The notes beneath the pieces were generated by a model that searched no databases, was not told the DNA's origin, and worked only from the letters and a program-made list of their open reading frames with translations. This document shows positions 31,200-44,146 of a stretch of DNA of 45,310 nucleotides, piece by piece. Location: contig JAEETO010000008.1 of the NCBI GenBank assembly GCA_016290385.1, positions 1-45,310 of the forward strand, in the 5' to 3' direction. The DNA is from Bacteroidales bacterium (GTDB taxonomy: Bacteria > Bacteroidota > Bacteroidia > Bacteroidales > UBA932). The translations under genes and the position numbers were made by a program. Each line of letters begins with the position of its first letter. Position 1 is the stretch's first letter.

Positions 31200-31697
31200 A
31201 TGAAAAGAATTGTGATGGCGGTGGTAATCTCCGCCATGATGTATGCGGCTGCTGCCGTGACGGCTACGTCCTGTACCTGGATGGATGAAGTGTGGGCGTC
31301 GTACGACAAGGGAAGCAACAAGTCGGACGAGCCCGAAATCCCGATGGACGAAGTGATGTCGGTCGAAGATCTGCTGGACGGCGGCTTCGTGGGCGACACG
31401 GTTTGGGTTAAAGGCTTCGTCGTAGGCGGCCTGCTCAGCGACGGAACGGTCGATTTCTCCTGCGATGAAGGAGTGCTGGGAACCGTCGTGGTGCTGGCCG
31501 ACGACGTGGACTGCGACGAAGAAGACGACTGCATGGTCCTGCACCTGACCAAAAAGGCGCACAAGGAGGCGCTGGGCCTCGACCAGTCAGCCGTCAAATC
31601 CAAGATCTACCACCAGCAGATCTATGCGCAGGGAAAAGTCGCTACCCACAAAGGCTTCCCTTCCCTGACCAATCTGTGCAATTACAAGCTGGAGTGA
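31200..31697 (+). CDS. Small exported protein, probable lipoprotein with DUF6359-like OB fold
   Basis: The 165-residue protein begins with a signal sequence (MKRIVMAVVISAMMYAAAAV) ending TATSCTW, where Cys25 could be lipidated, although the -3 residue Ala is not the usual Leu. The mature part is acidic (DKGSNKSDEPEIPMDE). It ends with beta strands VWVKGFVVGGLLSDG, then YHQQIYAQGKVATHKGFPSL, resembling the OB-fold DUF6359 domains of Bacteroidota lipoproteins. Function is unknown. It stands alone on the plus strand between two minus-strand operons and overlaps the end of the LPG-TM-like gene by 16 nt. The strong Shine-Dalgarno and leader hairpin suggest special translational control. Confidence 0.75.
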   Translation: MKRIVMAVVISAMMYAAAAVTATSCTWMDEVWASYDKGSNKSDEPEIPMDEVMSVEDLLDGGFVGDTVWVKGFVVGGLLSDGTVDFSCDEGVLGTVVVLADDVDCDEEDDCMVLHLTKKAHKEALGLDQSAVKSKIYHQQIYAQGKVATHKGFPSLTNLCNYKLE

Positions 31698-32668
31698 CGC
31701 CGCGCAACAGAAATGCGCAGGTATGAGATCACGCCCAGGACCAGCACCAGGACGGCGTGCAGCTCATGCTGGAGCGTAGCATAGAGAATGCCCGCTTCCC
31801 ACGTTTTCCCGTAGATGCCGGATACGGCCAGGGCCATCAGGTAATGGTAGGCTCCGATGCCGCCCGGCACCGGGATGACGGAGGCGCAGTTGCCCACCAC
31901 CGTGAAGAACAGCGCGTCTTTCATATCGAGCTCCGCCAGGTCGGGCATGGACTTCATGACACTGAAAGCCATGAGCAGGTACATGGTCCAGATGCCCAGC
32001 GTGAAGAGAAGGAAGGGACCTTTGTGCTGCATGTGGCCGAAACTGCTGAAACCCTGCCCCACAGAGGAAAGACCGCCGGCAATCTTCGCGCAGAGCCGGC
32101 TCTTCTCGCGGAAATGGTACACGGCCCAGAAAAAAAGCACGACGAGAACGACGACCATCACGAGCACCCACCAGAGTGAGAACTGGAAGCGGCTGGTCAT
32201 GGGCCCCCAGACCTGCTCGGCGAAAAACGGACCGAACTTGTCCCGGTCCAGCACCAGCGAAAGGCCCAGCATCAGGAAAATCGCCACGATGTCCCACAGA
32301 CGCTCCATCAGCACCGTACCGAACACATTGCCGAACGTGGACTTGCTACTCACATAGCCGCAACGGAGCACTTCGCCCGCGCCGGGAATGCCCAGGTTGG
32401 CGAGATTGCCCACGTTGTTGGCATCCCACGCTTCCAGCCAGGTGGTCTTCAGGCCCGTAGAACGCAAGAGCAGCCGCCAGCGGAACGCCCGGAAAACCAA
32501 AGCCCCGACCGAAGCCACAAAGAAAGGCACGAGCCAGACCCAGCGCGTCAGCTTGAGTCCTTCCCAGAATTCCTTCCAGTCAACGCTCCGCAGCGCGAGC
32601 CAGAGCAGCACGCCCGCCAGCGCCAGCGAAAAGACAAACTTCAGGACGGTTTTGACTTTCGCGTTCAT
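31682..32668 (-). CDS. LPG synthase TM-domain (YbhN/UPF0104) flippase-like protein
   Basis: The 328-residue inner-membrane protein has about eight hydrophobic segments and matches the lysylphosphatidylglycerol-synthase transmembrane domain family (UPF0104/YbhN), without the soluble aminoacyl-transferase half. Marks are VFRAFRWRLLLRSTGL, NVGNLANLGIPGAGEVLRCG, SVIPVPGGIGAYHYLMALAV and the basic C terminus. In full-length MprF this domain flips the aminoacylated lipid. Stand-alone versions are of uncertain function and often sit with lipid or glycolipid genes. Here it is the last gene of the seven-gene operon. Its ATG (32668) abuts the stop of the NRPS-like gene with no gap. That makes a lipid-linked or membrane-inserted product of the synthetase a reasonable idea, but only an inference. 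Confidence 0.85.
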   Translation of the reverse strand: MNAKVKTVLKFVFSLALAGVLLWLALRSVDWKEFWEGLKLTRWVWLVPFFVASVGALVFRAFRWRLLLRSTGLKTTWLEAWDANNVGNLANLGIPGAGEVLRCGYVSSKSTFGNVFGTVLMERLWDIVAIFLMLGLSLVLDRDKFGPFFAEQVWGPMTSRFQFSLWWVLVMVVVLVVLFFWAVYHFREKSRLCAKIAGGLSSVGQGFSSFGHMQHKGPFLLFTLGIWTMYLLMAFSVMKSMPDLAELDMKDALFFTVVGNCASVIPVPGGIGAYHYLMALAVSGIYGKTWEAGILYATLQHELHAVLVLVLGVISYLRISVARRHSSL

Positions 32669-35113
32669 TTAGACATTCTTCAGGAAATAGTCAACCAGAA
32701 TATCCTTGCTCTCCCGCGTAATCAGGAATCCATTGTGGTCCGTTGGATGCTGGATGACTTCACATTCGGGATAGCGGTTCTTCCAACGCTGCTCGTTGGT
32801 GAAGAACTCCTCCTTCTCCATCTTTTTTACTTCCGGAGATTTCTCGATGCCCGTGTTGACGGCGCTTCCTTCCGTATAAATACTGGAGATGAAGGCGGTG
32901 ACGCGACCGTTGTAGGTCTCCTCCGGCATCGTTGCCATCAGGTTGATGTCCAGATCCGTGCGGGCGTTGTTGCGCGCTTCGTTGTAGAAGGGGAAGAAGT
33001 ACAGCGCGCGCATCTTCTGCTGTAGGGAGATGTCGCGGTCCAGCTCTCCGTCCAGGACAATGACGTGCGGCTTGTGCACCTTGTCGTTATACAGGCGCGC
33101 GGCCAGGGCGAGGCCCTGTTCGCCACCAGCACAGAAACCGGTGATCGCCACAACGTTACGTGTATCGACAACGTCCTTTACGAGCTTGACATATTCGTCT
33201 ACCAAGCCGTTTATGTCTGTCAATCGGTCCTCCATGATGGTATGGTAGGACTCGATGGCGAAGATGGCGAATTTGTGCGACAGCCTTTCGGCCCATTCAC
33301 CAAAGATGAAAGAGAAACTGGTAAAACCACTGATCACGATGATGACGGGCTTGTCCGGATCAGCCCCAGAATCGCCGAACCAGAAGGCATTGGGATGTTG
33401 CTCGGCAGCCATGACTTTGCGGATGGTCCGCAGCGTGTAGAAGTCATTGGCGGTCAAGTGGAAACCGGACATACCCATCTGGACGGTCAGTTGCATGACG
33501 TGCAGCGAGGTGATACCCAGGTCGTTGAAAAGATCCGCTTCGACATTGACGCTGGGCAGGCCGAGCATCGTGGCCGTGGCCTGCATGAGCAGTTCCTCAT
33601 GGGGCGTCAGGGGCGTATCGTTGGTGATGACCGGGTCCAATGCCCGGTTGACGAGCGAGGCCTTGTCAATCTTGCCGTTGATGTTCAGCTTGAAGTCTTC
33701 GACCTGGTTCCAGAATGTCGGCACCATGTATTCCGGCAGCAACCGGGCGACATTTTGCTTGATCTGATTCAGGTTGTCAATGTCATCTGCGGTCCGGACG
33801 TAGGCCACGATGTATTTTTCCGTGCCGATCTCTTCCAGTCGCACGAAGGCCCGCAGGACACCCTCCTGCCGCTCGATCAGCGTGCAGATTTCACCCAGTT
33901 CAATCCGGTAGCCGTGCAGTTTGATCTGCGAATCCTTCCGGCCGATGTAGTTGAAACTGCCGTCTTCGTTGAGCGTCACCAGGTCGCCGCTGTGATAAAG
34001 CCGCGAGACGTCGATGCCATCGTGCTCCTTTTCATACGGATTCTCGAAGAACATCTGGGCGTTCAAGTCAGGACGGTTCCAGTAGCCGTTGGCCAGCTGC
34101 TCTCCACTGATAAGCAGTTCTCCTTCTTCGCCAGGCCGCACCAGTTTTCCGTCTGCATCGGCCACATAGCATACCACACCGGGGAACGGATAGCCTATGC
34201 TCTGCCATTCATTCACGCTGCGGACCTCCAGCCCGGTAACTGCGACACAGGATTCCGTGGGTCCGTATGCAATGACAAAACGGTAGGAATACTTGCCGAC
34301 AATCATTCGGGTAAGGTTTTCAGGAACAGCTTCTGCACCGGTGGCCAAGGTGTCCATCGCAGGAAAATCGTAATCCAGGAAGACTGCCAGCAGCGAAGGC
34401 GGGAGCAAGGTGAAAGTAATTTTCTGCTCTCTGATAAGCTTCTGGAGAAGGGTGGCATCATGGCGCTGGTCATTCTGGGCAATGACCAAGGTGCCGCCAT
34501 AGTAAAGCGAAGAGAAAATCTCCAGCACAGATACGTCAAAACTAATGCTGGCGAACTGAAGGATGACCGAGCTTTCGCTCACATGGAAAATATCCGGCCT
34601 GCATACCGCCTGCAAGAAACTGTAAAGCGCCTTGTAAGGCACAGAAACCCCCTTGGGCCGGCCTGTGGTGCCCGATGTGTAAATCATATAAGCTTCGGAG
34701 ACGCCACTGTTGAGTTTCGGCAGTTCCTCCATCAGCGGACTGACCAGCAGTTCATCGAGGTTCTCCGATGTGATCAGTACGCTCAGTTCCGCATCCCGGC
34801 TGATGAAATCCCGGCGGTCCGCCGGCGTCTCCACGTCGATGGGGACATACGAGCAGCCGAGTTTCATGGCGGCCAGGATGCAGGGCACATAGTGCTCGTT
34901 CCGGTCCAGGGATATACCGATGCGGACAGGAACATCCTGCTTGAGCGGGTGCTTTTCGACCAGCCGTACCACGCCGGAAGCGATGTGGTTGGCCATTTCG
35001 TCCATTTGGGCATAGGTGACCTCCCGGTCAACCATGACATAGGCGACCTTGTCTTTATAGGTTTCGACGATCGACGCTAAGCGCCATGAAAGTTTCTCAC
35101 GATACAGGTCCAT
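32669..35113 (-). CDS. Single-module NRPS-like A-T-TE protein with Cys-type thioesterase
   Basis: The 814-residue cytosolic enzyme has three domains. An adenylation domain (about residues 1-510) shows A3 YTSGTTGRPKGVSVPYKAL, A5 AYGPTESCVA, A7 YHSGDLV, A8 GRKDSQIKLHGYRIELGEI and A10 NINGKIDKASL. A thiolation domain carries LGITSLHVMQL, its Ser being the phosphopantetheine site. An alpha/beta hydrolase-type thioesterase (about residues 605-814) has the nucleophile loop GFCAGGE, with Cys where Ser is usual, and a distal His in TDHNGFL. No condensation domain is present. Reading the ten specificity positions by eye gives roughly D V L L A G A V A K; the first Asp suggests an alpha-amino acid substrate, but I cannot name it. 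The layout is that of A-T-TE synthetases that release or dimerise one activated acid. It starts 13 nt after the TonB receptor gene. Confidence 0.9.
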   Translation of the reverse strand: MDLYREKLSWRLASIVETYKDKVAYVMVDREVTYAQMDEMANHIASGVVRLVEKHPLKQDVPVRIGISLDRNEHYVPCILAAMKLGCSYVPIDVETPADRRDFISRDAELSVLITSENLDELLVSPLMEELPKLNSGVSEAYMIYTSGTTGRPKGVSVPYKALYSFLQAVCRPDIFHVSESSVILQFASISFDVSVLEIFSSLYYGGTLVIAQNDQRHDATLLQKLIREQKITFTLLPPSLLAVFLDYDFPAMDTLATGAEAVPENLTRMIVGKYSYRFVIAYGPTESCVAVTGLEVRSVNEWQSIGYPFPGVVCYVADADGKLVRPGEEGELLISGEQLANGYWNRPDLNAQMFFENPYEKEHDGIDVSRLYHSGDLVTLNEDGSFNYIGRKDSQIKLHGYRIELGEICTLIERQEGVLRAFVRLEEIGTEKYIVAYVRTADDIDNLNQIKQNVARLLPEYMVPTFWNQVEDFKLNINGKIDKASLVNRALDPVITNDTPLTPHEELLMQATATMLGLPSVNVEADLFNDLGITSLHVMQLTVQMGMSGFHLTANDFYTLRTIRKVMAAEQHPNAFWFGDSGADPDKPVIIVISGFTSFSFIFGEWAERLSHKFAIFAIESYHTIMEDRLTDINGLVDEYVKLVKDVVDTRNVVAITGFCAGGEQGLALAARLYNDKVHKPHVIVLDGELDRDISLQQKMRALYFFPFYNEARNNARTDLDINLMATMPEETYNGRVTAFISSIYTEGSAVNTGIEKSPEVKKMEKEEFFTNEQRWKNRYPECEVIQHPTDHNGFLITRESKDILVDYFLKNV

Positions 35114-35126
35114 GTTGCTTGGAAGT

Positions 35127-37481
35127 TTAGAATTTGAAACTTACATGACCCAGCAGCCATCTGCCTGCCTGCCGCATGGGCGCGACACTGGAACCGCCCT
35201 GCACATAGGTCGTGTTGGCAATGTTATAGACATTCAGGCCCAATTCCACTTTCCAGACAGCATAGCTGACACCCATGTCAAAAATTGCGCGGGCGGGAAG
35301 GTCGATATCGATTTCGGGCGCTCCAGGCAGGACGTAGATTGATTTTTGTTTCGACACAAAAAGGGCATGCGCGTTCACTTTCAATCCGGAAAGGATCTCA
35401 TAGGTGGCGGCCAGGTTTGCCTGCAGATCCGGGACATTATAGAGGCTGTGACCGATGGTCAGATAGTTCTCGTAACCAAGCACTCGCTGCCAGGTCAGGT
35501 TTCCGTCGACCTTGAAGCGGGAAATGGCATAACCGGCCGCCACTTCCACGCCGGCATTGGTCAGACTACCGGCATTGGTGTTACCCAGTTCACTCTGTAT
35601 GATGAAATTGTCGGCTTTGTTCACAAAGCCGTTCAGCTCCATCTTCAGTCCAGGTACAAGTTTGCCGTCACTGTAAAAGGACAGCTGCCATGAGTTCAGG
35701 TATTCGGGAGAAAGGTCGTCATCGCCGAAGTTGATGTCCAGGGTATTGTTGCGATAGAAATAGGGCGCGTCCACAAAGGCCTTGGAATAGCTCAGCTTGG
35801 CACTCCATTGGGGCCGGGAGTAGATCAGAGCGATACGGGGAGAAAGCACGTGCAGCTTCCTGCCCGTCGAGCGCTGCTTGAAGTCGTAACGCAGGCCGGC
35901 ATTGAGCACCAGCCCGTAGCCGAAGGAATGTTTGACCTGCACATAGGCATCGGCACTGGTCTCGTTACCCGTTTTCAGGATTTTGAGATCGTTGAAGGAT
36001 TTCAGGATCAAGTCGAAATCCTTACCCTCAAGATAAACGGCGTCATTCAGTCTGAAACGGTTGGCATGGCCGCCGACCATCACGACGCCGGACTGTTGCT
36101 TGCCAAACGCATAATTGTAACTGCCCTGAGCCGATATGCCATAGGTGTATTCATACCAATTAACGCTCTGGAATACGCCGTCATAAAGCGGGATGCTGAC
36201 ATCTTCCGCGCCATTGGGGTGCACTTCATTGATTCCCACGTCAGGAACGCTGTCCCCATCGATCTGGTAGCGCTGCTGGTTCTGCGAATCAAAGGTGGCA
36301 GAAAGCTGCCAGGAGAACCCTCCCTGGCTGTCGGAATAGCCAATCTCGGCGTGCTGCGAGGTGATGGCGTAGCCGGGGGCATTGCCGTTGAGCAGACGGT
36401 ATCGGCCATAGTCATACGGCGTAAAGAAGTAACTCAGCGTCAATGGCGCCACCGTCTTGGAAAAACGGCGGTTGTAGAGAACATGCATCTTCTCCCAAGT
36501 CAGCGACAGACCCAGGTCGTAGGACGGAGCCTTGTTGTAACCGCCGATGATCATGTCTCCCGCTATCGGCATGACGGCATACGGCTGTTCCTCCGGGGTA
36601 GCGCCATAGTGCACCTTCTGGCCATCTGCCCGGTAGATGCTGGCCCAGCCCAGGATGTCGAGCGAAAGATAGTGTTTGCCGAAAAGCGCATCGCCCCGAA
36701 GCTGGCCGTAGTTGCCGGCACCCGCTTTGACCATGAATCCGTCCACGTCCGATCCGTCCTTGGTGATGATGTTGACCACACCTGTCAAGGCGACGCCGCC
36801 ATACAGGGACGATGCTGGTCCACGGAGCACCTCTATCTGCTTCACCTTGTCAAGGCTGATCGAGAAATCGGGGCTGGCCGTGTTGGTGGAATAGCTGTTC
36901 AGGCGATGGCCGTCCAACATGATGAGAATCTTCTCCTGTCCGGACGAATAAATGCCGCGCATAGCTACGTTCATCTCCTCATTGCAGGCAATGTCGGTCA
37001 TACCGGGCACATAGGCGATGAGGGCGTCTTTCAGGGTCCGGGCACCGATGCGCCGGAGCATGTCTTCCGTAATCAGCGTCACGGGCACAGGTGCCTCTTC
37101 GATGGACTCCGCCTGCTGGGAAGCAGTGGTAATCGTGGCAGCCTTGCCGGCCTTGAGCCTTTCCACCATTTCGGTAAAACGCGGCACGTCATTGTAAACC
37201 CTGTAGTAAGGATCGACAGCCAGAAGTTTCGCGACCCATGTTTCGGCCACTTCGGGCTTGTCCATGTTCAGGTTGCACAAGGCAAGCAGCCTGTACACAC
37301 CGATCCGGTCCTCTCCGCTGAAGCTGCTCACCGAATTGCGCAAAAGCGAGTCGGCTTTCGCAAACAATCCGTACTCGTAGGCCTCCTGCGCCGACTCATA
37401 CAGATGCGTATCATCCTGTGCCCTGACGGCGTACGAGAGGAAAAGAAGAACGAGGGCGAAAATATATCCTTTGATTCTCAT
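35127..37481 (-). CDS. TonB-dependent outer-membrane receptor with N-terminal TPR-like domain
   Basis: The 784-residue protein starts with a signal peptide (MRIKGYIFALVLLFLSYAVRAQ). Residues 25-105 are helical and repeat-like (ALCNLNMDKPEVAETWVAKL), resembling TPRs, where most Bacteroidota receptors have a beta-sandwich. Then comes the plug domain (PVPVTLITEDMLRRIGARTL, IEVLRGPASSLYGG, GVVNIITKDG) and a 22-strand-type beta barrel ending in Phe (LLGHVSFKF), as needed for outer-membrane insertion. No SusD partner follows, so import of a starch-type polysaccharide is not suggested. Embedded between a kinase gene (4-nt overlap) and the NRPS-like gene (13 nt), it may bind or import the small molecule that the operon makes or responds to. 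That is inference. Confidence 0.92.
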   Translation of the reverse strand: MRIKGYIFALVLLFLSYAVRAQDDTHLYESAQEAYEYGLFAKADSLLRNSVSSFSGEDRIGVYRLLALCNLNMDKPEVAETWVAKLLAVDPYYRVYNDVPRFTEMVERLKAGKAATITTASQQAESIEEAPVPVTLITEDMLRRIGARTLKDALIAYVPGMTDIACNEEMNVAMRGIYSSGQEKILIMLDGHRLNSYSTNTASPDFSISLDKVKQIEVLRGPASSLYGGVALTGVVNIITKDGSDVDGFMVKAGAGNYGQLRGDALFGKHYLSLDILGWASIYRADGQKVHYGATPEEQPYAVMPIAGDMIIGGYNKAPSYDLGLSLTWEKMHVLYNRRFSKTVAPLTLSYFFTPYDYGRYRLLNGNAPGYAITSQHAEIGYSDSQGGFSWQLSATFDSQNQQRYQIDGDSVPDVGINEVHPNGAEDVSIPLYDGVFQSVNWYEYTYGISAQGSYNYAFGKQQSGVVMVGGHANRFRLNDAVYLEGKDFDLILKSFNDLKILKTGNETSADAYVQVKHSFGYGLVLNAGLRYDFKQRSTGRKLHVLSPRIALIYSRPQWSAKLSYSKAFVDAPYFYRNNTLDINFGDDDLSPEYLNSWQLSFYSDGKLVPGLKMELNGFVNKADNFIIQSELGNTNAGSLTNAGVEVAAGYAISRFKVDGNLTWQRVLGYENYLTIGHSLYNVPDLQANLAATYEILSGLKVNAHALFVSKQKSIYVLPGAPEIDIDLPARAIFDMGVSYAVWKVELGLNVYNIANTTYVQGGSSVAPMRQAGRWLLGHVSFKF

Positions 37482-38344
37482 TTTACGATCTTTACAGGAA
37501 TGATAAACGTAAACGTGGATCCAACCATCGGTTCAGACTCCACAAGCAGCTGGCCGTTATGGTTCTTGGTAATGATATCATAGGTTATGCTCATTCCCAG
37601 TCCCGTCCCCTGGCCGGCCGGTTTGGTGGTAAAGAAAGTCTCAAATATCTTTTCCTTAACCTCGGGAGTCATGCCCATGCCGTTGTCATGGATGACAATC
37701 TGAAGTTCTCCCCCGCCCTCGCCGTCGGGAGTCAAGGAGACCTTCACGTCAATTTCCGGCTTATAGTCCTCTCCTTCCTGGTCTGCCCGCTCCTTGACCG
37801 TATAGCAGGCATTGTTCATGACATTGAGCACGGCCCGGCTGATATCCTGCGGGATGACCATGACTTTGGGCATATCCTCCTGTATCTCCTCCCGGATGGT
37901 GATATTGAAACTCTTGTCATTGGCGCGCATGGCGTGATAGCTGAGCCACACGTATTCATGGACCAGCTGTCCCACATCGGTGGGGAGCATCTCACCGGCC
38001 TTGCCGCGGCTCTGCTGCAAGATGCCGCGGATGATGCTGATGGCCCGCTCGCCATGTTCCTGAATCTTGGCCAGATTCTCCTTGAGGTCCTGTGAGATAT
38101 CTTCCATGTCGGCGGCGTCATCCTCATCCAGCTTGTCCGCGCAGTCCTGCAATATGTCCTTCAAGTCATCCAACAACTTGACGGACATCTTGCTGAAGTT
38201 GATCACAAAATTCAGCGGATTCTGGATTTCATGGGCAATGCCTGCACTGAGCAGCCCCAACGAGGCCATCTTGTCCTGCCTGTGCAACTGCTGCTGCAAG
38301 TCTTCCACCTTATGTTTCAGGCTTTCAATATCTTCTTCCATCAT
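37478..38344 (-). CDS. Soluble histidine kinase with intact phospho-accepting His
   Basis: The 288-residue cytosolic protein has only a short N-terminal coiled coil (ESLKHKVEDLQQQLHRQDKM) and no sensor or membrane domain. The dimerisation and phosphoacceptor box is LGLLSAGIAHEIQNPLNFVI with His38. The catalytic domain shows the N box VMNNACYTVKE, the G1 box HDNGMGMTPE, and the F/G2 region TTKPAGQGTGLGMSI. I chose ATG 38344. The ORF starts at 38389, which would overlap the upstream sensor gene, while 38344 leaves a 10-nt gap. It lies next to a larger sensor whose own acceptor box is degenerate. Heterodimer or relay between the two is a natural inference, with the receiver of the SpoIIE protein as a likely target. 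Confidence 0.92.
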   Translation of the reverse strand: MMEEDIESLKHKVEDLQQQLHRQDKMASLGLLSAGIAHEIQNPLNFVINFSKMSVKLLDDLKDILQDCADKLDEDDAADMEDISQDLKENLAKIQEHGERAISIIRGILQQSRGKAGEMLPTDVGQLVHEYVWLSYHAMRANDKSFNITIREEIQEDMPKVMVIPQDISRAVLNVMNNACYTVKERADQEGEDYKPEIDVKVSLTPDGEGGGELQIVIHDNGMGMTPEVKEKIFETFFTTKPAGQGTGLGMSITYDIITKNHNGQLLVESEPMVGSTFTFIIPVKIVK

Positions 38345-38354
38345 AACCGTTATC

Positions 38355-41021
38355 TTACGCCATGTTAATGACAAATTCAGTATACTCATCCTTCACGGAA
38401 TCAACCGTAATCGTGCCGCCACAGTCATGCAGGATCTGCTGGCTGAGATAGAGCCCCACACCCGGCGCCTCGGCCGTGGGCTTGGTCGTGAAGAAAGGAT
38501 CGAATATCTTGTCAATGATGCTCTTCTCGATTCCGATTCCGTTGTCATAGATCTTGATCAGTACATGGCCCGAATCAGGCTCCTGCAAGACCGTGACGCG
38601 GAGCACGGGCTCGTACCTGCCAACTTTGTCCGCCTTCTTCTTCAGCGCATAGATGCTGTTTGAAAGCATCGACATGATGGACTTGCTGATCTGATCCGCT
38701 ACAACATTCCGCATGAGCGGCTTATCCGGCCTGATACAATCCACCTGGATTCCGAGCGCAGCGATATCGTCGGCATAGTAGTTCTTCAACTTGTCCACGC
38801 ACTGCTGACACAAGAGGGAGACATCTGCGGAATCAAACTTCCGGGAACGCTCCTTCAGCAGTTCCTCCATGGCTTTCAGGGTACGTGTCGTGGAGATTCC
38901 GTGCTGCTCGATTTTTTCCAGGTTGGTCTTCATCATATCCATCAAGTCCATGGAATCCTCGTAGGTATCGGTCGTAATGCTCTCTTTTTCATCCTCGATG
39001 TTATCATGCAACTCTTTCGACAGCCCCAATGTAAGATGTGCGAAATTATTGATGTAGTTCATAGGGTTGAGAATACGGTCGATCAAGCCCTTGGTCAACT
39101 TACCGATGGCTGCTTCGCGCTCCTGCCGCAGCAGCTGGTCCTGGGCTTCGCGCAACGCGTCGAGTGTCTCCTCAAGTTTGACGGATTTCTCCTTGATCTC
39201 ATCCCTTTGGGCCTCAATCTCATTTTTCTGTTTGACAACCTCTTCGGTACGCTTTTCAACAATCGCCTCCAGTCTTCGCTGTTCCTCGGCCATACGGCGC
39301 ATGCGGTACTTGAAGAACTGGTAGACCAGGTATACGATGACAAGCAGGTAGAACAACAGGGAATACCAGCGGACGAACCACGGATACGGCCGCTTGAAAT
39401 CATACGGACCGGTTTCACTCACCTGTCCATACGCGTCCTTCGAACGGACCGACACCTTATAGGAGCCGAAACTGAGGTTGGCGAAAAGGAACTCCTGCTG
39501 GTCACTCCATTTGGACCATGCGTTATCCTCCTGCAGCCGGTAACTGTAGAGCGTCTGTCCGATGGGGTCGGTCTTGTCGTTGGCAAAACTGAGGGAAAGG
39601 TCGCTGCCGTTCGTGCTGAACCGGCGGATATACAACTGCGGTGCAAACAAGCCGGTCATACGGCATTGGCCCAGATTGAAACGCACCAGTTCGTCGTTGT
39701 CGCCAATCCAGGCGAGACCGTTGTCAACCAGCATGGCTTTGACGCTGAAATCGGCGAACGGCTCGACCCACGCTTTCAGGTCCTCGGGCATACCCTCATA
39801 ATAGAGACCCGAGCCATTGTCATGGCAGCGCCATACATTACCGGCATTGTCCTCATATTCAAATAGTTTGGACAAAGGACCCTCCTCCCGCTTTTCAAAC
39901 GTCCGTCCTCCGGCCGCCATATAATAATAGTCACCCGCCAGGGTCATAGCCCAGACGCCCCCGTTTTCATCCTTCTTGAAGCGCGTGACATTGGGAATCT
40001 CATCGACCGTCACAGTCTCCTTGCCAGGACGGAAACGGGCTATGCGCTCGAGTTCTCCGACCAGATAGGAGCCGTCGTCCATGGCCAGAATGGAAAGGGC
40101 GAACGGGGTGGTCAACTGACGGGCGGCACCTTTGGCATATTCATAGACACCGTCCGAAGTGGCCACGTAAACAAATCCTTTGGAGCCCTGTGCCATCTGC
40201 CAGCAGGCGTGCCTGACACGATCGATCTGCGTGAACTGCTGCCCGTCGAGGCGATACAGGCCCTGGAACGTTCCCACCATCAGGTCCGGGCCACACATGG
40301 CTATGCATGAAATCTGGCCCCTGAGGCCTTCCTTTTCCGTAAAGTGGGTGTATATCTCAGAAAGTGAAATACTGAAAACACCGTTGTCCGTAGCGCCCCA
40401 GACCGTTCCCTTGCCGTCATGGGCCAGTTTCGTGATGCTGTTGGAGCAGAGTCCGTTGTCAACATTGATGCGCCAGACCTCCCGGTCCTGGGCATCGACT
40501 GCAATCACGCCCTCGGTTGCAGTGGCCAGAAGAGTCCGTTCGTCGGACAACTTGAGACGCTGGTATACTTCGATTTCATTCCACCTGTCCACCGCGCTCT
40601 CCCTGATACGCTCGCCGCCGGCAAGCACACTGGCATTGCTGCTGTTACGCTGTGCAAAGGAAACGCGGACCGAGTCTCCGTCGACAGATAAAACACGTCC
40701 CGTCACATTGATTCCCTCGAAAACGACGTTCCCTTCCTCATCCAATTGCAGGCCGACCACGCGGGAGATGTCAGGGGTGTGGACAATCCGCCATTCAACA
40801 TTGTCATAGACAAGCAAACCTTCGAAATTCGCAAAGAAGGTATGTCCCTCACCGTCACAGATGACATCAAAATTCCGGTTGTGGGCATTGTACTTGCTCG
40901 CCGAATAGTTTCTGAAGAACGGAATGCCCATATAGGCATCCGCTCCACTCTGAGCGACTGCCTGTACCGCGAACAGCAGCACAGCAAGCATCAAACCGAT
41001 ACGAAACAGAAACCTTCTCAT
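38355..41021 (-). CDS. Periplasmic beta-propeller histidine-kinase-like sensor lacking the phospho-His
   Basis: The 888-residue membrane sensor has a signal peptide (MRRFLFRIGLMLAVLLFAVQ) and a large periplasmic region of propeller-type repeats (for example VWGATDNGVFSISLSE and VWAMTLAGDYYY) up to about residue 470. A Y_Y_Y-like domain (YSYRLQEDNAWSKWSDQQEF) comes next. One transmembrane helix (WYSLLFYLLVIVYLVYQFF), a long coiled coil and a C-terminal ATPase domain (YDNGIGIEKSIIDKIFDPFF, APGVGLYLSQQIL) follow. The layout recalls the sensor half of Bacteroidota hybrid two-component systems. In the acceptor box GKLTKGLIDRILNPMNYI the His is Asp and the following Glu is Arg, so it cannot autophosphorylate in the normal way. 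ATG 41021 is preferred over 41066, giving a 4-nt overlap with the WD40-like gene. Confidence 0.9.
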   Translation of the reverse strand: MRRFLFRIGLMLAVLLFAVQAVAQSGADAYMGIPFFRNYSASKYNAHNRNFDVICDGEGHTFFANFEGLLVYDNVEWRIVHTPDISRVVGLQLDEEGNVVFEGINVTGRVLSVDGDSVRVSFAQRNSSNASVLAGGERIRESAVDRWNEIEVYQRLKLSDERTLLATATEGVIAVDAQDREVWRINVDNGLCSNSITKLAHDGKGTVWGATDNGVFSISLSEIYTHFTEKEGLRGQISCIAMCGPDLMVGTFQGLYRLDGQQFTQIDRVRHACWQMAQGSKGFVYVATSDGVYEYAKGAARQLTTPFALSILAMDDGSYLVGELERIARFRPGKETVTVDEIPNVTRFKKDENGGVWAMTLAGDYYYMAAGGRTFEKREEGPLSKLFEYEDNAGNVWRCHDNGSGLYYEGMPEDLKAWVEPFADFSVKAMLVDNGLAWIGDNDELVRFNLGQCRMTGLFAPQLYIRRFSTNGSDLSLSFANDKTDPIGQTLYSYRLQEDNAWSKWSDQQEFLFANLSFGSYKVSVRSKDAYGQVSETGPYDFKRPYPWFVRWYSLLFYLLVIVYLVYQFFKYRMRRMAEEQRRLEAIVEKRTEEVVKQKNEIEAQRDEIKEKSVKLEETLDALREAQDQLLRQEREAAIGKLTKGLIDRILNPMNYINNFAHLTLGLSKELHDNIEDEKESITTDTYEDSMDLMDMMKTNLEKIEQHGISTTRTLKAMEELLKERSRKFDSADVSLLCQQCVDKLKNYYADDIAALGIQVDCIRPDKPLMRNVVADQISKSIMSMLSNSIYALKKKADKVGRYEPVLRVTVLQEPDSGHVLIKIYDNGIGIEKSIIDKIFDPFFTTKPTAEAPGVGLYLSQQILHDCGGTITVDSVKDEYTEFVINMA

Positions 41022-42676
41022 TTGAACGTCATATATGGTATGGATGCACCGACATAGCGCGTCCATTCCTGTTGGGTCAGATTACGGTTGATTTTGTCGT
41101 ACAGCTGCGCAGCCATGTCGTCAGCCGAAGAATACAACAGGAGGACACTTCCTGCGGATGTTCCGATCCACACGGATTTCCCGTCCGCATCGCCGCATAC
41201 GGCAAGTGTCCACCCGTCAAAAGTATAATCCACAGGCACCAGCCACTCTGCCGGAATCTCCTTGCCGTTTGCCACACGCTTGCCGGCATTTTCCGCCTCC
41301 AGCTCCTCGCGGAAAGACAATCCGCTCTCGAAAGGCATGTTGTCCAGATTCCAGATGTAGGCCGCCTTGTCATAGCCGCCCGTAACGACGACGGAACCGA
41401 GCATGTCCATGCTCATGCACCGGGCCTTGTGGGCGGACAGCACCTCCAGTACGCGGTTGTATGGGTTGACCGGATATACCGTGCCATCCTCCACGCCGAG
41501 CAACAGGCATTTGCTTGCCTTGTCATAATGTGCGGCCGTTACCACTTCCTTCACCAAAGGGGTCTTATCTGCCATACGGCCCGAAGCATCCATCTCGGCA
41601 TAGGAGCCGTCCGCATAGAACAAGCAGATGGAACCTTCCCGTTCGACAATGGCAGACAGCGGTTTGTCAAGGCTCACTTGTCCCGTTATCTTTCCGTCGG
41701 CATACCAGCACAGGCTCCTGCGTCCTGCCACGAGCAAGCGGCCACCCACCGGGAAGAGTTTGAAATAATTATCCTCCGGCAACGGCACGACCTCATTTTT
41801 CCCATTGAAGTCCAGAAGGCACAAAGGCCCTTTCAGGGAAAGGGTATAGATTTTCCCGGCCAGCACCGTCACATCCCGGAAATCGTACGCCGGATCGAAC
41901 AACAAAACCTTGGAAGTAATCCGCCTGGTTCCGTTGTTCACAGCCGCGGTAAGCCATTCCACCTCTCCGTAATTGGTCACGACCACACTTTGTCCGGGTG
42001 TACCGGGGATCTGCGAGATGGCGTTCACGGCGCCACCTTCGCGGACCTTATAGCGCGGAATACCGCCGGTGGCCTGTGCCAGGGATTTGAAAGTTTCAGA
42101 ATAATACTGGTTTCCCCTATTGCTCTTGAGGAAATACCAGCTGGCGTAGGCAAGAATGTCGGCCACCTCCGTCTCGCCGGCTTCCCGGCGGACCTGGGAG
42201 CTCACCGCCAGGCCCTTGGCCTGGGTGCGCCGGTTCAACGTGTCTGCCACGTTTCTGGCATGCGTCGCCTCATCCCTTTGTTCCAGCGCGATCTCCTGTT
42301 GCCGCTCCGCGTTGGCACGTTCCCGCTCAGCCACGCCCGCCGCTTCATTCGCCTTGCGCTCAGCCTGACGGGCAGCACGGCTTTCCATCTCGGCACGCGC
42401 GGCATTCCGGGTAGCCAGGTTGGACTGTTCCTCGGCACGGTCACGCTGCTGGTCGGAAATCGCTTTCTGCTGATAGGCGATATCCTCCATCTGCTGGCTG
42501 ACGCGCTTCACGATGGCGGCATCCTTCTCGGCAGCCACCAGCCGGTCCATCTCATCCTGCACGGCGGCCAACTCCCGCTTGGACTGCCGGCGGCCCATGT
42601 GATAGGCGGTGACAGCCACACCGGCGATGACGGCCAATGCGATCAGAGACGATACGATGATTGAACGGCGTTTCAC
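41018..42676 (-). CDS. Membrane-anchored coiled-coil and WD40-like beta-propeller protein
   Basis: The 552-residue protein has an N-terminal membrane anchor (SLIALAVIAGVAVTAYHMG, residues 10-28) and a long charged coiled coil to about residue 165 (QRDRAEEQSNLATRNAARAE, ERERANAERQQEIALEQRDE). A short helical bundle (EVADILAYASWYFLKSNRGN) leads into a C-terminal propeller that includes a clear WD-type blade, SMDMLGSVVVTGGYDKAAYIWNLDNM (quoted here in part: VVVTGGYDKAAYIWNLDN). It resembles the WD40 parts of bacterial signalling proteins that follow a coiled coil, but no effector domain is attached. With the orientation assumed from the anchor, the propeller could lie on either side of the membrane. 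It overlaps the SpoIIE gene and the sensor gene by 4 nt each. A scaffold for the cascade is my inference. Confidence 0.85.
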   Translation of the reverse strand: MKRRSIIVSSLIALAVIAGVAVTAYHMGRRQSKRELAAVQDEMDRLVAAEKDAAIVKRVSQQMEDIAYQQKAISDQQRDRAEEQSNLATRNAARAEMESRAARQAERKANEAAGVAERERANAERQQEIALEQRDEATHARNVADTLNRRTQAKGLAVSSQVRREAGETEVADILAYASWYFLKSNRGNQYYSETFKSLAQATGGIPRYKVREGGAVNAISQIPGTPGQSVVVTNYGEVEWLTAAVNNGTRRITSKVLLFDPAYDFRDVTVLAGKIYTLSLKGPLCLLDFNGKNEVVPLPEDNYFKLFPVGGRLLVAGRRSLCWYADGKITGQVSLDKPLSAIVEREGSICLFYADGSYAEMDASGRMADKTPLVKEVVTAAHYDKASKCLLLGVEDGTVYPVNPYNRVLEVLSAHKARCMSMDMLGSVVVTGGYDKAAYIWNLDNMPFESGLSFREELEAENAGKRVANGKEIPAEWLVPVDYTFDGWTLAVCGDADGKSVWIGTSAGSVLLLYSSADDMAAQLYDKINRNLTQQEWTRYVGASIPYMTFK

Positions 42677-43836
42677 TTTCTGCGGATTACTAATTGGGTA
42701 ATATCATCACTCTGGGGTGCCCCATCAACAAACTCGATGACTTTGGCATTGATCGTGTCAACGATCTGCTTGCTGGAAGCGCCTTTCAGTTCAGCCAGCA
42801 CAGCCGCCAGCCTGTCTTCTCCGAATTGGCCGTGATCCTTGTCCTCGGCTTCGGTCACGCCATCAGTGTACATCACGAGGGCATCGCCGTCGTTCAGCTG
42901 AAGCGTCTCTTTATTGTAAGGCATGCCTCCCATCGCGCCGAGCACCAGGTTGCAGGAGCACTTTAACATCTCGACGCTGCCGTCGGCATGAAGGATGAAA
43001 GGCGGATTATGTCCGGCATTGGTAAATTCGACCAGACCGGTCTGCAAGTCATAAATGCCATAGAAAACGGTCACGAACATGGAGTTCACGCTTTCATCGC
43101 AAAGCATGTCGTTGACTGTCTTCATGCACTCGTCCGGAGACTGGGCACGCGTGCCGATCGCCTTGATGAGCGTATGGCTGACCGCCATGAAGATGGAGGC
43201 CGGAACCCCTTTGCCGCTCACGTCGGCGATGGTAAAGCCGATCCGATGGTCATCGATCGGGAAGAAGTCATAGAAATCACCGCCCACATCCTTGGCGGCC
43301 AGCATGCTGGCATAGATATCCACTTTCCCGGCATCGGCCATTTTCAGATCGAAGTTCCGGGGCAGGATGCCTTGCTGGATCTCACGCGCGACAGACAGGT
43401 CGCTCTGGATATCCACCAGCGTGGCATGTTCCTTCTGAGCACTCCGGATATATTCAATCTGCTCCACGGCTTTGTCGATGGTAATCTGCAAGTCATCCAG
43501 GTCTATCGGTTTGGTGGCGAAATCAAAGGCCCCGTTGTTCATGGCATGGCGGATGTTGTCCATATCACCGTATGCACTGACCATGATGCACTTCAAGGAC
43601 GGGTTACGCATCTCGTTGACTTTGGCCAGCAAAGTCAGTCCGTCCATTTCGGGCATGTTGATATCCGAAAGGATGATGGCAATATCCGGATTCTTCAATA
43701 AGATCTGCAGTGCCTCAAGTCCGTTATGGGCAAAGAAGAACTCATATTCGCCTTTTCTGATCTTTCTACGGAAATATTGCGTCAACAGCAACTCAAGATC
43801 GGTTTCATCGTCAACGCTGAGAATTTTAACGGCCAT
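42673..43836 (-). CDS. Receiver + SpoIIE/RsbU-type PP2C phosphatase
   Basis: The 387-residue cytosolic protein has an N-terminal CheY-like receiver (residues 1-125, acidic pair Asp9-Asp10, phospho-acceptor Asp58 in LSDINMPEMDG, Lys in FATKPID). A coiled-coil linker (EQIEYIRSAQKEHATLVDIQ) leads to a PP2C/SpoIIE phosphatase with LAAKDVGGDFYDFFPID, IADVSGKGVPASIFM, VMYTDGVTEAED and the C-terminal SDDITQLVIRRK. The metal-binding Asp residues are all in place. Such proteins dephosphorylate anti-anti-sigma factors or related partners, but no STAS or anti-sigma gene is in the window. It is the first gene of the seven-gene operon, with a strong promoter 49 nt upstream, and its receiver is the likely end point of the kinase genes downstream. 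Confidence 0.94.
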   Translation of the reverse strand: MAVKILSVDDETDLELLLTQYFRRKIRKGEYEFFFAHNGLEALQILLKNPDIAIILSDINMPEMDGLTLLAKVNEMRNPSLKCIMVSAYGDMDNIRHAMNNGAFDFATKPIDLDDLQITIDKAVEQIEYIRSAQKEHATLVDIQSDLSVAREIQQGILPRNFDLKMADAGKVDIYASMLAAKDVGGDFYDFFPIDDHRIGFTIADVSGKGVPASIFMAVSHTLIKAIGTRAQSPDECMKTVNDMLCDESVNSMFVTVFYGIYDLQTGLVEFTNAGHNPPFILHADGSVEMLKCSCNLVLGAMGGMPYNKETLQLNDGDALVMYTDGVTEAEDKDHGQFGEDRLAAVLAELKGASSKQIVDTINAKVIEFVDGAPQSDDITQLVIRRK

Positions 43837-43884
43837 GGTTAAAATGAAAACTACTAATCAGATATACTTATTATTAATAAAGAG

Positions 43885-43915
43885 CAAAACTACAGAAAAA
43901 ATCAAAAAAATCAAA
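43885..43915 (-). promoter_or_regulatory. Promoter of the seven-gene signalling/biosynthesis operon
   Basis: On the minus strand, TTTG at 43915-43912 and TAGTTTTG at 43892-43885 match the -33 and -7 elements of Bacteroidota promoters exactly, with a 19-nt spacer. Transcription should start near 43878, about 40 nt before the ATG at 43836. Confidence 0.75.
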
Positions 43916-43927
43916 AACATACGACAT

Positions 43928-43954
43928 TTCGAGCCCCAAGCGGGTCACAAAAAA
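43928..43954 (+). repeat. Inverted copy of the tRNA-Lys 3' end (27 nt)
   Basis: These 27 nt are identical to the 3' end of the tRNA-Lys gene plus six As beyond it, and lie in the opposite orientation. The other copy is at 44067-44093 on the minus strand, so the two form a perfect inverted repeat enclosing 112 nt. The 5' part of a tRNA is absent next to this copy. It could be a relic of an attachment site, of a lost second tRNA, or of an inversion. Confidence 0.8.
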
Positions 43955-44030: not shown

Positions 44031-44078
44031 GGTCACAAAAAAGAATAGCAGCTGTAGCTGCTATTCTTTTTTGTGACC
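44031..44078 (-). terminator. 48-bp perfect palindrome acting as tRNA-Lys terminator
   Basis: Positions 44031-44053 are exactly complementary to 44056-44078, with a 2-nt centre. On the minus strand a strong stem (AGAATAGCAGCT with AGCTGCTATTCT) is followed by six Ts, a rho-independent terminator after tRNA-Lys. Because it is symmetric it would work on both strands. The outer arms contain the last five nucleotides of the tRNA gene, so readthrough RNA could pair with the acceptor end. Confidence 0.8.
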
Positions 44079-44093
44079 CGCTTGGGGCTCGAA
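44067..44093 (-). repeat. tRNA-Lys 3'-end copy of the 27-nt inverted repeat
   Basis: This is the partner of the plus-strand copy at 43928-43954. It covers the T-loop to discriminator part of the tRNA gene and six flanking bases. Confidence 0.8.
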
Positions 44094-44146
44094 CCCAAGA
44101 CCCCAGCATTAAAAGTGCTGTGCTCTACCAACTGAGCTAGCGAGTC
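44074..44146 (-). tRNA. tRNA-Lys (anticodon UUU)
   Basis: The minus strand folds into a complete 73-nt cloverleaf. The acceptor stem is GACTCGC with GCGGGTC (one T-G pair), the D arm GCTC/GAGC, the anticodon stem CAGCA/TGCTG around the loop CTTTTAA (anticodon TTT), and the T arm TTGGG/CCCAA with loop TTCGAGC. The discriminator base is A. CCA is not encoded, so it must be added after transcription. A good promoter lies just upstream and a strong terminator just downstream, so it is transcribed alone. A 5-bp hairpin (44148-44161) sits in the short precursor leader. Confidence 0.96.

Follow-up and report, generated by a model that had tools for sequence, protein, structure and literature searches.

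A six-gene Bacteroidales cassette in which a TonB-dependent receptor and a single-module synthetase appear to vary as a matched pair on a conserved SpoIIE relay

Here we analyse a stretch of 45,310 nucleotides (hereafter the window), which is the whole of contig C59 (JAEETO010000008.1) in a 2.36-Mb Bacteroidales genome, 83.5% complete (GCA_016290385.1), and which carries a cassette that appears to couple a TonB-dependent receptor (TBDR) and a small synthetase to a conserved signalling relay. The open reading frame (ORF) listing holds seven long minus-strand ORFs after a tRNA-Lys, where a first-pass annotation, made from the sequence alone, had placed them. The first encodes a response regulator with receiver and SpoIIE (PP2C) domains (42673-43836; Pfam Response_reg 7e-21, SpoIIE 4e-54), and the second a coiled-coil protein with a WD40-like propeller and an N-terminal hydrophobic stretch (41018-42676; WD40 repeat below the Pfam threshold). 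These are followed by a propeller/Y_Y_Y sensor pseudokinase with a degenerate acceptor box, here called propHK (38355-41066; Y_Y_Y 5.5e-7, HATPase_c 1.8e-14, Reg_prop below cut-off), and by a soluble histidine kinase (HK) with an intact box (37478-38389; HisKA 1.4e-8, HATPase_c 2e-20). The TBDR, composed of a helical N-terminal part, plug and barrel (35127-37481; Plug 1e-17, barrel 2e-29), precedes a predicted single-module synthetase of adenylation, thiolation and thioesterase domains (A-T-TE; 32669-35113; AMP-binding 3e-63, PP-binding 1e-6), and the series closes with an LPG_synthase_TM protein, LPG-TM (31682-32668; Pfam), the neighbour of the insertion site. Upstream, the minus-strand tRNA-Lys(TTT) (44073-44146; ARAGORN) lies 237 nt from the cassette start, and between the two a repeat search found 27 nt that repeat the tRNA-Lys 3' end in inverted orientation and without a mismatch (43928-43954, 100% complementary to 44067-44093).

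The close packing of these genes is borne out by the ORFs. The SpoIIE and WD40 genes and the HK and TBDR genes overlap by 4 nt each, 13 nt separate TBDR from A-T-TE, and the gap between A-T-TE and LPG-TM is 0 nt. Read from their first start codons, propHK would overlap its neighbour by 49 nt and HK its own by 35 nt; however, the HK start in most relatives corresponds to about codon 16-17 of the window HK, and codon 16 of propHK is a Met ahead of a signal-peptide-like stretch, so that the likely starts are 41021 for propHK and near 38341-38344 for HK, giving a 4-nt overlap and a gap of 10-13 nt. The genes had also been placed behind one exact promoter. A match to TTTG-N19-TAnnTTTG, which we take to be a Bacteroidota-type pattern, is indeed present on the minus strand at 43885-43915 (TTTG-N19-TAGTTTTG), but the pattern also matches 30 of 1000 resampled copies of the window's upstream stretch, and a strict match occurs in only 4 of 14 upstream regions (window, G413, L024 and G395); it is therefore weak evidence and was not used.

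Pfam and NCBIfam agree with the domains named in the first-pass annotation, apart from the two propeller matches below cut-off and the C-terminal TE, which the Pfam scan did not name. This TE is predicted from its conserved residues and a structural model, the A and T domains being called by Pfam. The model has a hydrolase-like order of strands and helices, in which Cys661, Asp688 and His793, the putative triad, follow beta5-, beta6- and beta8-like strands; all three are invariant in 10 aligned sequences, and in a set of 15 every sequence has the Cys. Among PDB profiles the TE came closest to the Dieckmann cyclase NcmC, though weakly (E 0.0046); beta-lactone or Dieckmann chemistry is no more than a candidate for this Cys TE on so weak a match. 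The A domain has the Asp that we take to contact the amino group (position 235 in GrsA numbering), and it would appear to activate one alpha-amino acid; an A domain for aryl keto acids was considered and is disfavoured by this Asp. The pocket code, read by hand on the same presumed numbering, is DVLLAGAVAK in the window and DVLFSGGIVK in most relatives of its class (class A, below). We claim no substrate, because a Trp-like code was found in no paper, and we predict no product. By Pfam, A-T-TE has no condensation domain, and the six genes from SpoIIE to A-T-TE include no catechol, hydroxamate or other chelator-tailoring gene. The Pfam hits of the TBDR are plug and barrel families plus one chance-level hit, with no STN or carboxypeptidase-like N-domain among them. 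Its model, with a mean confidence (pLDDT) of 63 and low values in the loops, gave FoxA as the best Foldseek match (E 3e-27), with PirA, FpvA, BtuB and PqqU also matched.

Within the relay, receiver Asp and PP2C Asp motifs, the latter presumably metal ligands or catalytic residues, are intact in 14 of 14 aligned sequences of the SpoIIE protein, which is 387 aa long and has no third domain by Pfam. In the WD40 protein, the coiled-coil motif VKRVSQQMExIAYQQK is invariant in 9 aligned sequences, down to 37% identity. The dead acceptor box reported for the propeller sensor proved to be a fixed trait: GLIDRILNP replaces GIAHEIQNP in all 13 copies (window, 11 family relatives and G055), with Asp-Arg for His-Glu and the ATP-binding boxes kept, and propHK has a HATPase without HisKA in Pfam and NCBIfam. 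The soluble HK keeps its His ([AS]HE[IV]QNPLN in 13 of 13 aligned).

When one genome per species, over 84,980 species, was searched with A-T-TE, nine loci at 69-80% identity were recovered from eight metagenome-assembled genomes (MAGs); a tenth match, L029 (21% in the A domain), is left out of all counts. These relatives are labelled Bacteroidales or Bacteroidia, their records name goat reticulum, sheep omasum and red deer as sources, and the RUG in their names presumably stands for rumen uncultured genomes. The order SpoIIE, WD40, propHK, HK, TBDR, A-T-TE is the same in 7 of 7 unbroken loci (L020-L024, L027 and L028), a recurrence beyond chance. The flanks of the cassette differ among groups of loci, and the insertion sites differ too. 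Two short contigs from a single MAG, L025 and L026, each have a full A-T-TE and perhaps represent two strains; the G852 locus is broken off inside the TBDR. The same six genes are also found in G562 (L093), G830, G988 and G804. Receiver-SpoIIE proteins of close cassettes are 79-94% identical to that of the window. Thus, when gene neighbourhoods in relatives are inspected, as the first-pass annotation had proposed, homologues of six of the seven genes stay together and are not scattered, and LPG-TM is the exception. The same annotation had named a split in transcription between the TBDR and kinase genes as telling against its model; such a split exists in G395, in which TBDR (running across two contig ends) and A-T-TE are divergent from the kinase genes, yet still adjoin them, so that the pair is not parted from the relay.

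The inherited unit is therefore six genes, not seven. LPG-TM is present in one of the 27 relative loci, some of which end soon after A-T-TE; in that one, G413, it directly follows the cassette, as in the window. Relatives of LPG-TM occur in 38 of the 40 genomes of the genus, A-T-TE in 5, and the WD40 protein in the same five. Furthermore, in G415 and G403 the NqrF gene (98.6% and 99.7% identical), tRNA-Lys and LPG-TM (90% and 86%) adjoin with no cassette between them, and G346 has the same order without a cassette (LPG-TM 66% identical). Both G415 and G403 do have a cassette, on the same contig as the empty site and some 40 and 49 kb off, respectively. In the window and G413 the cassette occupies the space from tRNA-Lys to LPG-TM. 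LPG-TM as a seventh member, or as an MprF-like conserved partner, is rejected on the empty sites and the other 26 loci, although it is probably co-transcribed with the cassette in the window. Separately, tRNA-Lys is inverted relative to NqrF in G415 and G403 (L082 and L083), and not in G346 (L085) or the window.

A second genus has A-T-TE in 9 of 320 genomes, and the WD40 protein is found in 12 of 398 family genomes, 11 of which also have a full-length A-T-TE (the exception is G270). At E 1e-100, A-T-TE was matched in 1 of 247 genomes, its own, and a TE profile found the window's own copy only among 393 genomes of the order. The genome searches score 3-4 candidates per genome, and the counts are lower bounds. 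Across the order, the WD40 protein gave matches in 24 of 393 genomes. Setting aside the own genome, G055 and G731, most of the matched sequences are frames from other families, some 1000-1100 residues long, that share the coiled-coil front of the WD40 protein (L100-L122). Further cassettes lie near tRNA-Ser/Val, tRNA-Cys or tRNA-Arg, and, as a raw count, 7 of 15 entries have a tRNA no more than 250 nt from a cassette end that is visible. The cassette thus looks like a mobile islet that enters near tRNA genes. Carriage on plasmids was not found, the 141 plasmid records matched being all below 60% in identity, with at least 80% of the query covered in 2 of them; nor was viral carriage, all 72 viral-contig matches being 20-31% identical.

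The most telling feature of the six genes is the way in which the last two vary. When the sequences were sorted afterwards by identity into classes A, B and C, the class of the TBDR equalled that of A-T-TE in 17 of 17 genomes (13 A, 3 B and 1 C, with L025/L026 and the partial G852 included). The window (class A) and G413 (class B) are 89-94% identical in their relay proteins, 44% in the TBDR barrel and 39% in A-T-TE, and within the TBDR gene their DNA identity drops from roughly 90% to roughly 50%. In G413 the TBDR sequence comes from two contig ends, 95% identical where they overlap, and it may therefore mix strains. The other class B members bear the same pairing: G633 is 82% identical to G413 in the barrel and 79% in A-T-TE, and G804, on one unbroken contig, is 86% identical to G633 in the TBDR and 79% in A-T-TE, with relay genes 73-83% identical to those of the window. 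Class C is represented by G395 (A-T-TE 45% and barrel 51% identical to the window).

Phylogenies tell the same story. In the tree of concatenated relay proteins, the window joins G413 (100/100) and G633 groups with L027 and L093 (98/99), whereas the barrel and A-T-TE trees each join G413 to G633 (100/100); the trees were built without G804, G830 and G988, and G055, G270 and G395 sit on long branches. Approximately unbiased (AU) tests, for groups chosen after the identities had been seen, rejected five of six opposite groupings: the relay with G413 and G633 held together (p 2.7e-5), the barrel (p 5.4e-5) and A-T-TE (p 8e-84) with window and G413 together, the relay with L027, L022 and L023 together (p 1.8e-5), and A-T-TE with L027 and L093 together (p 1e-43). 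Read from these trees, barrel and synthetase would have been exchanged together between lineages while the relay stayed unchanged, and the two seem to change in step, as a matched pair, while the signalling chassis beneath them is conserved.

To these classes can be added covariation within class A, where distances were compared over 11 cassettes (classes B and C, L025/L026 and G852 left out). A-T-TE distances correlate with those of the barrel at r 0.82, against 0.53 for TBDR residues 1-239 and 0.57 for the relay, and the partial correlation of A-T-TE with the barrel, 0.75, was reached in 0 of 2000 label permutations. Without near-duplicates (8 cassettes) the values are 0.67, 0.10 and 0.08, and the partial r, 0.72, was reached in 4 of 2000. 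Scanned in 40-residue windows, the A domain has r of at least 0.7 with 20 of 51 barrel windows and with 0 of 225 elsewhere (SpoIIE, WD40, propHK, HK and TBDR 1-239); with 8 cassettes the counts are 6 of 51 and 0 of 225. A nine-cassette scan gave 16 of 51 and 0 of 225, with a peak r of 0.94 at TBDR residue 471, and, with the window removed, 19 of 51 barrel windows and 1 of 52 WD40 windows. The covarying parts lie within TBDR residues ~320-600, which include modelled loops at ~409-435 and 489-504, and the strongest windows start at 451-481. TBDR 421-600 correlates with the three thirds of the A domain at r 0.88, 0.63 and 0.85, and TBDR 601-784, which lies closer to the A-T-TE gene, at 0.70, 0.12 and 0.53. 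Since the strongest covariation is away from the end nearest A-T-TE, plain linkage does not seem enough. The tie between synthetase and receptor proposed in the first-pass annotation is thus upheld by matched classes, trees, AU tests and covariation alike, and pairing through a ligand is well supported by these comparisons, although physical linkage may still contribute in part.

Several observations weigh against so simple an account. TBDR and A-T-TE are adjacent, so that one recombination tract can move both, and the G413 exchange may have happened in one event. In their relay genes, G633 and G804 are sisters (88-93%); also, the barrel with L027 and L093 held together was not rejected by the AU test (p 0.086), which makes the second co-swap weaker. 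Label permutation does not remove shared ancestry. The segment TBDR 601-784 still reaches its r of 0.70 with the first A-domain third, WD40 window 341 reaches 0.79 with full A-T-TE in the nine-cassette scan, and the TE covaries less (r 0.54, or 0.43 without near-duplicates, the partial value then being reached in 71 of 2000 permutations). Taken alone, the A-pocket segment has nearly as high a covariation with propHK 581-660, via a stretch inserted in the window, and covariation of the pocket by itself was therefore dropped as proof. In addition, G055 and G270 have relay and TBDR without A-T-TE, and the window cassette contains no exporter, STAS or known output gene.

Other loci bear on the reach of the relay. 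The G804 cassette is preceded, on its own strand, by another SpoIIE gene and by a STAS gene (Pfam) that ends 15 nt short of it, and G633 has a similar pair about 1 kb upstream. STAS and HATPase_c_2 genes lie within about 10 kb of the module in G055 and G395, and in G055 and G731 STAS and RsbW-like (HATPase_c_2) genes stand beside it. No STAS gene adjoins the window cassette. In the own genome there is one match to HATPase_c_2 together with one STAS on contig C22, which also has a SpoIIE gene; next to a large nonribosomal peptide synthetase (NRPS) there is a second STAS. From these linked genes in relatives and their presence in the own genome, the target of the window SpoIIE is probably a STAS protein acting in trans, which makes plausible the earlier suggestion that the sensors report to the SpoIIE phosphatase. 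The NRPS frame, of 2429 aa, is on contig C40 of the same genome (G000, L038, 4555-13519), beside SpoIIE-like and STAS genes, and makes a second neighbourhood of NRPS and SpoIIE there. Another locus, L218 (2458-6946), has a 434-aa frame with HATPase_c_2 near its end, then a substrate-binding-like protein, a Cache/HAMP/SpoIIE protein and a STAS match.

Distant relatives suggest how the cassette may have been assembled. G731 has a single propeller kinase with the His itself, beside WD40, SpoIIE, STAS and HATPase_c_2 genes, and neither TBDR nor A-T-TE adjoins; the simplest reading of such loci would be a stepwise build-up, with relay and partner switch followed by split kinase and TBDR, and then by the synthetase. 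In G270 an export cluster with a C39-peptidase ATP-binding cassette transporter (Pfam) is divergent from the cassette that lacks A-T-TE (L091, 1938-9097), and it could supply a peptide ligand instead.

On balance we favour, with moderate confidence, a mobile-looking six-gene cassette that senses a self-made ligand through its own TBDR and a pseudokinase-kinase-SpoIIE relay. A-T-TE would activate one amino acid, and its Cys-type thioesterase would release a small product, which would leave the cell and be bound by the cassette's own TBDR, as their matched diversification suggests. Occupancy of the TBDR may then be passed through its helical N-terminal part to the propeller pseudokinase, which would work with the separate soluble HK carrying the acceptor His, in line with the split seen in the two genes. 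HK would phosphorylate the receiver of the SpoIIE phosphatase, and this in turn would dephosphorylate a STAS anti-sigma antagonist, shifting an RsbW-type partner switch of the kind encoded beside the module in relatives. The WD40 coiled-coil protein might, at a guess, be a membrane scaffold. Barrel and synthetase would be swapped jointly on a constant relay, much as pherotypes are, or the lock-and-key groups of siderophores. As to the ligand, its export, the direction of signalling, the STAS target and the output, we infer what is proposed here from gene content and linkage.

Among the other explanations, the one closest to known biology is that the A-T-TE product chelates a metal, that the TBDR imports it and that the two-component relay only reports uptake. 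Siderophore receptors (FoxA, PirA and FpvA) are among the Foldseek neighbours, and the covariation has the pattern described for pyoverdine (PMC11734721). On the other hand, TBDRs fold alike whatever their ligand, with BtuB and PqqU in the same list of hits; the synthetase is a lone A-T-TE without a condensation domain, and no chelator-tailoring gene is among the six; and four of the six genes are devoted to signalling. We regard such a metallophore as unlikely, if the most credible of the alternatives. Slightly less probable still is that linkage explains the pairing. TBDRs serve as phage and bacteriocin receptors, so that new loops may be selected for that reason and A-T-TE, only 13 nt away, may hitch-hike with the replaced tract, as the possible single tract of G413 would allow. 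Against this, covariation with the A domain is weaker for TBDR 601-784, the part next to A-T-TE, than for TBDR 421-600; the effect holds without the window, without near-duplicates and within class A; and in G395 the pair is still matched although its two genes diverge from those of the kinases.

A further alternative would make the older relay a sensor of envelope stress or of the surface, with TBDR and A-T-TE as later cargo serving a separate task, as the bare G731 relay and the A-T-TE-less G055 and G270 would permit. However, TBDR accompanies the relay at every family locus where that end is visible, and a gain in two steps, with the TBDR first and the synthetase second, would suit equally well a receptor that obtained a ligand maker of its own; we think this alternative improbable. 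Finally, the first-pass annotation had envisaged a seven-gene envelope pathway in which LPG-TM moves the product, or a lipid carrying it, across the inner membrane for the TBDR to handle. The 0-nt junction with A-T-TE, and the recurrence of LPG-TM next to the G413 cassette, speak for it. The sites without a cassette in G415, G403 and G346, the near-ubiquity of LPG-TM in the genus and its absence from all but one relative locus leave it very improbable, with the 90% and 86% identical orthologues in G415 and G403 away from the cassette; of the single operon proposed there, the cohesion of six genes stands and LPG-TM falls away.

If the self-sensing cassette is real, ruminant gut Bacteroidales would have a language for self-recognition or of a quorum type, whose dialects can be exchanged and which is read at the outer membrane, and in which receptor and ligand maker are swapped together onto a conserved relay. 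It may also add a non-siderophore case to synthetase-receptor coevolution, and the small molecule made by these bacteria, like the TBDR residues that recognise it, becomes open to test. The more specific proposal, a pherotype-like Bacteroidota signalling system with a TBDR dedicated to an NRPS-made autoinducer, a pseudokinase-kinase-SpoIIE relay to a partner switch and matched alleles on a fixed chassis, is put forward tentatively, with somewhat less confidence than the self-sensing reading. No description of such a gene set was found among the open-access papers listed, as represented by titles and the beginnings of abstracts, most subscription journals lying outside this scope.

Several known systems resemble parts of the cassette. 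Closest is the pyoverdine synthetase and its TBDR, FpvA, the receptor of a self-made NRPS product, where, as here, the correlation of synthetase with receptor distances well exceeds background (r 0.88 for pyoverdine, against 0.51 between the receptor and conserved genes; PMC11734721). The cassette differs in having no STN hit, sigma/anti-sigma pair or chelator genes, in its single-module synthetase and in the two-component/SpoIIE relay within the same operon. In HsbR/HsbA and CrsR/CrsA a receiver is likewise joined to a PP2C phosphatase, acting there on an anti-sigma factor antagonist (PMC6482189); the SpoIIE protein of the cassette has no C-terminal kinase/anti-sigma domain, its candidate STAS partner is outside the window cassette, and it is joined to a TBDR. 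Pvf signalling in Pseudomonas resembles the cassette in that an NRPS takes part in producing an extracellular autoinducer, the Pvf receptor and signal path being left to future studies in that paper (PMC10194917), but the gene set is different, the cassette having no N-oxygenase. The predicted TE shares a Cys nucleophile in the elbow with NcmC and the TEs of ObiF1, SulM and AB3403, and its Asp appears to follow a beta6-like strand, as in AB3403 and unlike ObiF and SulM (PMC11298585); the cassette synthetase has no condensation domain. Lastly, the cassette encodes a candidate synthase beside a candidate receptor, in sequence classes that match in 17 of 17 genomes and, by the trees, have been exchanged; these classes may reflect matched specificities of the kind expected of quorum-sensing and pherotype systems.

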